Source: Wohlfahrtiimonas populi (GTDB taxonomy: Bacteria; Pseudomonadota; Gammaproteobacteria; Cardiobacteriales; Wohlfahrtiimonadaceae). From it: a DNA stretch of 35,706 nucleotides. A model generated the notes under the pieces. It saw only the letters and a list, made by a program, of their open reading frames with translations. It did not search any database and was not told where the DNA came from. Location: the NCBI RefSeq assembly GCF_002006795.1, contig NZ_MVDN01000009.1:62953-98658 (forward strand). The letters run 5' to 3'. Each line of letters starts with the position of its first letter. Within the stretch, counting starts at the first letter, position 1. The translations under genes and the position numbers were made by a program. Positions 2,139 through 3,493 of this stretch are shown in pieces.

Positions 2139-2171
2139 AAAAAAACCGAAGGGACTTTCGTCACTCCGGTT
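2139..2171 (-). terminator. Intrinsic terminator (attenuator) inside the metY leader
   Basis: On the minus-strand RNA, AACCGGAG (2171-2164) pairs with CTTCGGTT (2151-2144). It encloses an inner 3-bp GAC-GAAA-GTC tetraloop hairpin and is followed at once by seven U's (2145-2139). The hairpin ends about 46 bases before the metY ATG and after the leader peptide stop codon, so it terminates transcription within the leader unless disrupted. Confidence 0.85.
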
Positions 2172-2265
2172 GTATTCTGCATGTTGAAATTTGCGCTTTA
2201 GAGTGACTCAATCGAAAAGGAGAGTCACTCTTGCAAGTAACTCTCTAAAGCATCATCATTTCAAC
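2160..2265 (-). promoter_or_regulatory. Putative methionine attenuator: mutually exclusive helices in the metY leader
   Basis: Seen on the minus-strand RNA: helix 1:2 (2244-2236 with 2229-2221, 9 bp, one G-U); helix 2:3 (2231-2222 with 2209-2200, 10 bp perfect); helix 3:4 (2207-2200 with 2167-2160, 8 bp, one G-U), whose 3' arm is the 5' arm of the terminator; and an outer helix joining the leader-peptide codons to the distal region (2265-2258 with 2190-2183, and 2251-2243 with 2203-2195). Forming 3:4 excludes the terminator, and forming 2:3 frees it. Inference: a ribosome stalled at the first Met codon should cover RNA to about 2246, leaving segment 1 free (1:2 plus 3:4, read-through). A ribosome at the stop codon covers segment 1 (2:3 plus terminator). 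Energies were not computed. Confidence 0.65.
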
Positions 2266-2283
2266 TACAAATAAAAATTTCAT
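2245..2283 (-). CDS. metY leader peptide, MKFLFVVEMMML
   Basis: A 12-codon open frame with ATG at 2283 and TAG at 2247-2245. Residues 9-11 are three consecutive Met codons, so Met makes up 4 of 12 codons. The frame starts roughly 24 bases from the predicted transcription start, with GGGA seven bases and AGGA directly upstream of the ATG as possible Shine-Dalgarno contacts. It ends just before the set of alternative helices and the terminator ahead of metY. A run of the regulatory amino acid immediately upstream of alternative hairpins is the signature of ribosome-mediated attenuation (as in trp, his, leu, phe leaders). The peptide itself probably has no function beyond being translated. Confidence 0.7.
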   Translation of the reverse strand: MKFLFVVEMMML

Positions 2284-2359: not shown

Positions 2360-3493
2360 TTAATCTATGAATTCTGACAGCACATTATTTAAAAATAGAA
2401 AGCCTTGATCTGTCGTACTCAATTGACCATTTTCTCTGACAATCAATCCGCGTTTTTGCAATAAATTTAGTTTATCTTCAATCACAGATATTGGTAAAAA
2501 TGTTCTTTCAGAAAAAATAGCTTCTTCAATCCCATGTTTTAAACGCAATACATTTAGCATGAATTCAAAAGGTAATTCTTCGTTGATCACTTCTTCAATC
2601 ACAAGACGCTCACTCGCACTTTTCTTCAAATACTGCGTGGGATGCTTTTCAATAGAAGTGCGTAAAATACGGGATTCACCTTGCATTGTGACCTTGCCAT
2701 GCGCGCCTGCGCCAATGCCAATATAATCACCAAATTCCCAATAATTGCGATTATGCTTCGATTGATGCCCTGCTTTTGCAAATGCTGAAACTTCATAATG
2801 CTGATAGCCATTAGCTTTCAATAAAGCATAGCTTTGCAATTGCATCTCTTCAATCAATTCACTTTCAGGCAATTTTGGCGGAAATTTATAGAAATAAGTA
2901 TTTGGTTCCATCGTCAATTGATAATGGGAAATATGATCAGGTTTCAGATCAATCACACCCTGCAAATCACTTAATGCTTGCTCCACTGTTTGATCTGGCA
3001 ATGCAAACATCAAATCACAATTGATATTATCAAAGCCTGCATCACGCGCGATTTGTACTGCTCTTTTGGCTTCATCACTTTGATGAATTCTGCCCAATTT
3101 TTTCAAATGAGCATCATTTAAGCTCTGAATACCAATCGAAATTCGATTGATACCAATTTCATGATAAGCCTTAAAATAGTTAGCATCCACAGTGCCTGGA
3201 TTTGCTTCCATCGTGATTTCAGCATGTGGATCTAAAATGAGATAGCTACGCAATCCACTCATTAAGCGCGCCATATCATCTGGCTTCATCAAACTTGGCG
3301 TGCCACCGCCAATAAAAATTGTGCGAATGGTTCTACCCCAAATTTTAGGCACAATTTTGACAATATCTGCCAATAATGCATCCACATAATCTACTTCGTA
3401 GGAATCATTTTTTAACTGATGTGAATTAAAATCACAATATGGGCACTTCTGAATACACCAAGGAAAGTGTATGTATAAACTTAATGGAATCAT
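2360..3493 (-). CDS. hemW: Radical SAM heme chaperone HemW (formerly oxygen-independent coproporphyrinogen oxidase-like)
   Basis: This 377-residue cytoplasmic radical SAM protein has the cluster motif C13-x3-C17-x2-C20 in HFPWCIQKCPYCDFN, followed by the GGGTPSLM glycine-rich SAM-binding stretch (about residues 63-70). Cysteine in CPYCDF, the shortened N-terminus and length below 400 match HemW, which binds heme and delivers it to respiratory enzymes, rather than HemN (about 455 residues). ATG start with only a weak GAGA upstream, so it may depend on translational coupling: it begins 12 bases after nadE. It is the last gene of a pncB-nadE-hemW cluster. No clear terminator follows; the metY promoter begins 17 bases later. 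Confidence 0.9.
   Translation of the reverse strand: MIPLSLYIHFPWCIQKCPYCDFNSHQLKNDSYEVDYVDALLADIVKIVPKIWGRTIRTIFIGGGTPSLMKPDDMARLMSGLRSYLILDPHAEITMEANPGTVDANYFKAYHEIGINRISIGIQSLNDAHLKKLGRIHQSDEAKRAVQIARDAGFDNINCDLMFALPDQTVEQALSDLQGVIDLKPDHISHYQLTMEPNTYFYKFPPKLPESELIEEMQLQSYALLKANGYQHYEVSAFAKAGHQSKHNRNYWEFGDYIGIGAGAHGKVTMQGESRILRTSIEKHPTQYLKKSASERLVIEEVINEELPFEFMLNVLRLKHGIEEAIFSERTFLPISVIEDKLNLLQKRGLIVRENGQLSTTDQGFLFLNNVLSEFID

Follow-up and report, generated by a model that had tools for sequence, protein, structure and literature searches.

A putative methionine-codon transcription attenuator upstream of metY and metA in Wohlfahrtiimonas

The leader of metY in Wohlfahrtiimonas populi very probably (we estimate about 85%) acts as a ribosome-mediated transcription attenuator, responding to charged Met-tRNA and controlling metA as well as metY. 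It was identified in a 35,706-nucleotide stretch of genomic DNA, hereafter the window. This reading is based on the elements of the leader, on their conservation and covariation, on the distribution of the leader over two genes, and on the logic of its folding.

All elements lie on the minus strand, between hemW (2360–3493; above the TIGR00539 cut-off) and metY (819–2093). The latter encodes an O-acetylhomoserine aminocarboxypropyltransferase (O-acetylhomoserine sulfhydrylase), with a TIGR01326 score of 577.4 bits for a cut-off of 495.1, and its ATG at 2093 is preceded by the Shine-Dalgarno sequence GAGGAG (2108–2103). The leader peptide, MKFLFVVEMMML, is encoded by a 12-codon ORF (2245–2283) that runs from the ATG at 2283 to the stop codon TAG at 2247–2245. 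Three consecutive ATG codons (2251–2259) are the control codons, as judged from the sequence and from ribosome-masked folding. Segment 1 (2235–2245) pairs with segment 2 (2220–2230) in the predicted hairpin 1:2 (2245–2220), and segment 2 may instead pair with segment 3 (2200–2209), as indicated by the 2:3 pair counts. Segment 3 can also pair with segment 4 (2160–2167), forming the antiterminator 3:4, or be taken up partly by an outer helix (2176–2271). The outer helix, identified by folding and by compensatory differences between the leaders of metY and metA, joins 2271–2246 with 2200–2176, such that its 5′ strand starts within the ORF at the fifth codon and takes in the Met codons and the stop. 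Segment 4 lies within the 5′ arm of a predicted intrinsic terminator (2139–2171), which consists of a hairpin at 2171–2144, with one mismatch in its stem, and a T tract at 2145–2139. As both the antiterminator and the terminator (4:5) use segment 4, they are mutually exclusive. The terminator-like call returned by our scan corresponds to hairpin 1:2 (2245–2220), not to the hairpin at 2171–2144.

The initial annotation of this DNA had described the leader ORF, its Met run, the terminator and the metY Shine-Dalgarno sequence, together with the competing helices 1:2, 2:3 and 3:4, the outer helix and the dual use of segment 4, and all of these were recovered where it had placed them. The promoter that it also proposed is less certain. 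Candidate boxes can be read by eye at 2343–2315 (−35 TTGACG at 2343–2338, a 17-base spacer, and −10 TTATAT at 2320–2315), but a consensus scan of 2000–2500 reports no promoter, where shuffled sequences are expected to give 2.6.

When Met-tRNA is ample, the ribosome would pass the three Met codons, reach the stop codon and cover segment 1. Segments 2 and 3 would then pair, segment 4 would form the terminator, and metY would be off. If Met-tRNA runs short, the ribosome would stall on the first Met codon (or on the second), allowing hairpin 1:2 to form; this would free segment 3 to capture segment 4 as it emerges, so that the terminator would be delayed and metY transcribed. With no ribosome on the leader, the outer helix of the metY leader would hide part of segment 3, which would again favor the terminator and keep the gene off; most metA leaders would have this default in a weaker form or lack it. 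The scheme takes the leader ORF to be translated, stalling to depend on Met-tRNA, and readthrough to follow from the stall, each of which we consider probable. Pairing of the leader-ORF start region with the anti-Shine-Dalgarno sequence ranges from −3.3 to −4.4 kcal/mol for the metY leaders and is weak, from −0.4 (two leaders) to −4.0 kcal/mol, for the metA leaders, compared to a mean of −1.5 kcal/mol for random 20-mers and to −2.4, −2.9, −4.5 and −6.9 kcal/mol for thrL, hisL, trpL and leuL of E. coli, respectively.

A covariance model (R1), built from five metY leaders including that of the window's genome, identified the leader twice in each of the six Wohlfahrtiimonas genomes, once after hemW and once before metA. 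The metA leaders were detected in all six with E-values from 4.7e-14 to 1.3e-7, and the gene that follows them starts as a MetA-type homoserine acyltransferase in every case. In the window's genome, this protein scores below the cut-offs of both NCBIfam models, with 424.6 bits for MetA_acetyl (cut-off 460.5) and 398.3 bits for MetA_succinyl (cut-off 495). The two committed steps that convert homoserine to homocysteine are those of metA and metY, so that codon, gene pair and proposed sensor agree with each other. Thus, the metY leader proposed initially is real, but it is not solitary, since the metA leader is its pair.

The presence of this pair also bears on a simpler account, in which the hairpins serve to end hemW transcription, the short ORF arose by chance, and metY is expressed constitutively or from some other site. 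The terminator is indeed strong and hemW ends just upstream, at 2360; however, the leader with its Met run and competing helices also precedes metA in 6/6 genomes, and we consider a chance ORF beside a hemW terminator extremely unlikely.

The hemW-side leader is joined to metY in five of the six genomes; in G002, the sixth, a contig break intervenes. The leader of G002 was found by R1 on a contig other than that of metY, near the contig end and following the same HemW terminus as in the window (GFLFLNNVLSEFID), and the metY contig begins 92 bases upstream of metY. This leader therefore probably belongs to metY. The two contig ends that lie between the leader (L119, after 1651) and metY (L007, 1–92) have similar inverted sequences, GGGGCTGTTGAACATT and, reversed, GGGCGTGTTGAACATT, and perhaps an insertion element splits metY from its leader in this genome.

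The peptides encoded by the metY leaders are MKFLFVVEMMML (two genomes), MNLFVIEMMML (two) and MNLLFVIEMMML (two, one of them without a stop codon), and those of the metA leaders are MNTNQFQPMMML, MNTLTFQPMMML, MNTTNLQLMMML, MNTTNLQPMMML and MTHPSALMMML (two). Only MMML is common to both sets. The ATG, the frame and ATGATGATGCTT are retained in 12/12 leaders of the six genomes, and the TAG in 11/12. Conservation of the Met-rich ORF among relatives had been named as a point on which the attenuator proposal could fail, and it is found in all 12 leaders of the six genus genomes. Within the six genomes, the 15-mer ATGATGATGCTTTAG is confined to 11 of the 12 leaders. In the metY leader of G001 (L117), TGG replaces TAG and extends the frame to 51 codons, ending with a TAA just past the U tract; the TGG version of the 15-mer ATGATGATGCTTTAG occurs in this leader and at two more places elsewhere in the six genomes. 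According to the attenuator model, a leader lacking its stop would leave metY expression high and poorly regulated. The TGG represents either a natural stop-loss allele, expected to deregulate metY, or a sequencing error.

Retention of MMML followed by a stop in 11/12 leaders could also be explained by an arrest peptide, in which the nascent MMML together with a small molecule (methionine or SAM), rather than a shortage of Met-tRNA, blocks the ribosome, possibly by stalling at the stop codon. Arrest peptides usually require specific residues in the exit tunnel. The residues before MMML, however, are wholly different in the metY leaders (KFLFVVE, NLFVIE and NLLFVIE) and in the metA leaders (NTNQFQP, NTLTFQP, NTTNLQL, NTTNLQP and THPSAL). 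Moreover, the CTT and TAG codons fall within the outer helix, so that their conservation can be explained without a role for the peptide. We therefore regard arrest by the nascent peptide as very unlikely.

Base pairs were counted in an alignment of the 12 leaders to the covariance model (A3), because the 3′ arm of the outer helix is positioned wrongly in a MAFFT alignment (A1). Standard pairs occupy 92.5% of cells in A3, an alignment fitted to the structure and thus biased toward it, compared to 35.6–44.9% for slid partners and 84.8% with letters exchanged at random between sequences. Changes on both sides of a pair are seen at 13 of 42 pairs, for a mean of 9.1 after shuffling (5 of 500 shuffles as high). 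In the outer helix, two-sided changes affect 9/13 pairs of the two outer stretches and 0/3 of the inner stretch. Since A3 is fitted to the structure, the flanks of the outer helix were also tested without any alignment. Flanks from the same gene pair with −12.6 kcal/mol (metY) and −6.8 kcal/mol (metA), compared to −4.9 and −4.3 kcal/mol for cross-gene combinations; a permutation test that ignores kinship reached the real pairing in 24 of 20,000 trials with 12 leaders and in 20 of 720 with six representatives. These comparisons suggest that the outer helix is maintained by paired changes. Hairpin 1:2 is paired in 100% of cells over the 12 leaders, helix 2:3 in 104/108 and helix 3:4 in 94/96. 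The 5′ arm of the terminator conforms to CC[GA]GAGTGA[CT] in 12/12 leaders and the 3′ arm is more variable; this extra conservation of the 5′ arm is expected from its second partner, segment 3.

The 145-base leader folds with −48.9 kcal/mol (z = −6.17), which none of 200 shuffled sequences equals. Such a strong structure, with a covarying outer helix, would be compatible with a riboswitch or with a leader RNA bound by a protein, the short ORF playing no part in either. Rfam yielded no family at gathering score in the window, or at the four of the twelve leader loci that were scanned (metY L115 and L116; metA L125 and L129), and no tRNA was found in the window. An incidental ORF is also difficult to reconcile with an ATG, frame and Met run that are kept in 12/12 leaders, in particular since three bases of the Met codons (2257, 2256 and 2253 in the window) do not vary in any of the 12, although the outer helix leaves them unpaired. 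In addition, the spacing of the segments is compatible with the footprint of a ribosome. Thus, we consider a riboswitch or protein-binding leader very unlikely, and favor the ribosome-mediated attenuator.

Equilibrium folding of full-length leaders with ribosome masks results in the terminator in every state, in 12/12 leaders, and the terminator alone is more stable than helix 3:4 in all of them. Antitermination must therefore be kinetic, and switching was scored on nascent RNA that ends in the terminator loop, shortly after segment 4 (+8). With the ribosome at the first Met codon (in the A site), 5.5–8.6 pairs of helix 3:4 are expected in 12/12 leaders, compared to 0–1.7 with the ribosome at the stop codon. 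At a later cut (+11), the weakest leader, that of metA in G005, falls to 3.0 pairs of 3:4 at the first codon. A stall at the second Met codon gives 0.04–8.4 pairs, and a stall at the third gives 3.6 in one leader and less than 0.8 in eleven. As the second codon works in some leaders and the third hardly at all, the first codons are likely to be the sensing codons. In the absence of a ribosome, helix 3:4 is close to zero in 6/6 metY leaders, and the metA leaders give 0.0, 1.8, 1.8, 5.8, 7.8 and 7.9 pairs. The interpretation of the initial annotation is supported, with corrections: its order of events agrees with the comparative analysis and with folding of the cut RNA, but at full length the terminator always wins, and the off state predicted for untranslated leaders applies to all six metY leaders but only to some metA leaders.

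Freeing the terminator arm costs more with the ribosome at the first Met codon than at the stop in 12/12 leaders, the difference being 0.59–5.51 kcal/mol (mean 3.38 kcal/mol). Shuffled sequences reach the real value in 0–7 of 100 cases per leader, and the means of the 100 shuffle sets go no higher than 0.69 kcal/mol, in a test that is not blind, since this measure was picked after the result of a looser one was known. That shuffled leaders seldom switch as much is further evidence against a terminator accompanied by a chance ORF. The smallest switches are those of two metA leaders (0.59 and 1.13 kcal/mol), for which 7 and 4 of 100 shuffles, respectively, do as well. The sign of the difference holds with the 3′ edge of the ribosome placed at P+13, P+15 or P+17, except for the metA leader of G005, which is level at P+13. 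By the looser measure, which scores pairing of segment 4 with any upstream RNA, the metY leader of G005 is negative and reached by 194 of 200 shuffles, and the other eleven are reached by 0–4 of 200. The same freeing cost, calculated for the best control codon and for the stop, separates thrL (11.4 and 0.0), leuL (5.0 and 1.0) and trpL (2.4 and 0.1) of E. coli; hisL is not separated, so that one of four known attenuators fails.

No convincing leader was found outside the genus, either with R1 in 57 relatives and in 369 genomes of the class, or in 32 genomes of the order with a second model (R2) built from all 12 leaders; both R1 searches used stricter filters, by which weak matches are lost. 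R1 matches in four of the 57 relatives (G010, G014, G022 and G030; best E-value 0.0026) and in three other genomes of the class search (best E-value 0.0035) were rejected. The places inspected are plain terminators without a three-Met ORF, some of them behind tRNA-like sequence. R2 matches in nine other genomes (E-values of 0.0011 or worse) were likewise rejected; the three inspected (L172–L174) are terminators, and L172 contains one ATGATG and no run of three Met codons. The inspection of weak places omitted those in G013, G017 and G021, the second in G010, and two within the genus (G002:C25 and G005:C18). Weak covariance matches (E-values of 0.03–0.94) also appear on the opposite (plus) strand of the metY leaders of G000 (the window's genome), G001 and G003, because the leader is nearly self-complementary.

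In the sister genera g3 and g4, metY adjoins metA in 11/11 genomes. An ORF scan confined to g4 among the sister genera (g2, g3 and g4), and covering nine metY loci, identified no three-Met leader. The metY of the window is an outlier, with 42–46% identity to the best sister-genus metY, and is 62% identical to the metY of a metagenome-assembled genome of Bacilli (L036). It is possible that metY was replaced horizontally, metA being no longer adjacent to it.

RNA-level control of methionine genes is usually exerted by SAM riboswitches. SAM-I riboswitches are present in three of the six genus genomes (G000, G002 and G004), and none was found in G001, G003 and G005. In the window's genome they end ~97 bases before metH (G000:C2:10034-10135, L211) and 60 bases before metF (G000:C67:44914-45009, L212). 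An S box (RF00162) was rejected as regulator of metY, since none was found in the window or at the leader loci scanned (L115 and L116 of metY, L125 and L129 of metA). A T-box is also without an Rfam match at gathering score in the window. MetJ was rejected as well, as PF01340 was found in none of the 57 genomes searched, including that of the window, with a positive E. coli control. With SAM-I riboswitches before metH and metF and the Met leaders before metA and metY, the window's genome would place the homocysteine branch under the Met leader and methyl transfer under the SAM switch.

A possible parallel is found in Flavobacteriia, for which we analyzed 38 metY loci, comprising the 30 best-scoring of a family search (not a random draw) and eight more. 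A Met-rich short ORF lies upstream of metY in 12/38 loci, for an expectation of 0.0 from composition shuffles; an S-box string, identified by string match only, is present in 16/38, and no locus has both. The Met-rich or Met/Cys-rich leader ORFs, each followed by a terminator, are those of L058, L082, L088, L110, L179–L181, L183, L185, L188, L192 and L196, with two leaders in tandem in both L179 and L183. In folding calculations, which lack a shuffle control at either cut, six of 14 leaders separate clearly at the first cut (8.6–13.1 kcal/mol at Met, 0.4–1.6 kcal/mol at the stop) and eight do not, L181 being reversed (1.0 at Met, 3.8 at the stop). Of these eight, at a later cut, five separate (10.8–15.4 against 1.9–9.8) and two do so weakly (3.2 and 4.2 against 1.0); for L181, the wrong terminator had been taken. 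Over both cuts, Met and stop are told apart in 11/14 leaders by one sum or the other. These leaders resemble those of Wohlfahrtiimonas in having a Met run, a terminator and metY downstream. They differ in that there is no evident sequence likeness, some of the peptides are Cys-rich and, in the cases read, the antiterminator strand is in the 3′ part of the ORF. As they appear unrelated, this device seems to have had more than one origin.

We lean toward the view that Met-codon attenuators are an overlooked class that evolved at least twice, for metA and metY in Wohlfahrtiimonas and for metY in Flavobacteriia, and that they split sensing in the window's genome between Met-tRNA for metA and metY and SAM for metH and metF. 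Methionine starvation would limit initiation too, which is awkward for a Met sensor and raises doubt over any Met attenuator. A conserved two-gene Met-leader regulon, in genomes where MetJ was not found and with SAM riboswitches on the next steps in the window's genome, makes this doubt directly testable. It also raises the question of how elongator Met-tRNA could be sensed by a leader whose own start needs initiator Met-tRNA. Furthermore, the Met-run leader provides a search rule, which has already yielded unrelated Met-rich leaders in another phylum.

PMC1262725 detected no RNA structure conserved upstream of the methionine operons of Actinobacteria and, in other species, assigns the S box to methionine and attenuators to histidine, threonine and phenylalanine. 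Searches of open-licence papers, judged by titles and abstract openings, yielded no account of a Met-codon attenuator. The SAM-I riboswitch (S box, RF00162), which co-occurs with the Met leaders in the window's genome, likewise serves methionine genes. It often acts via transcription termination, and SAM is bound without translation. The attenuators described in textbooks respond to Trp, His, Thr, Leu, Ile/Val and Phe. The Wohlfahrtiimonas leader is predicted to work like the Trp, Thr and Leu attenuators. As in thrL, leuL, trpL and hisL of E. coli, a short ORF with a run of codons for the amino acid that the pathway makes is followed by an antiterminator that competes with a terminator, a U tract and the regulated gene. 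In contrast to these E. coli attenuators, the amino acid sensed here would be methionine, and the leader has five pairing segments together with an outer helix that absorbs the Met codons.
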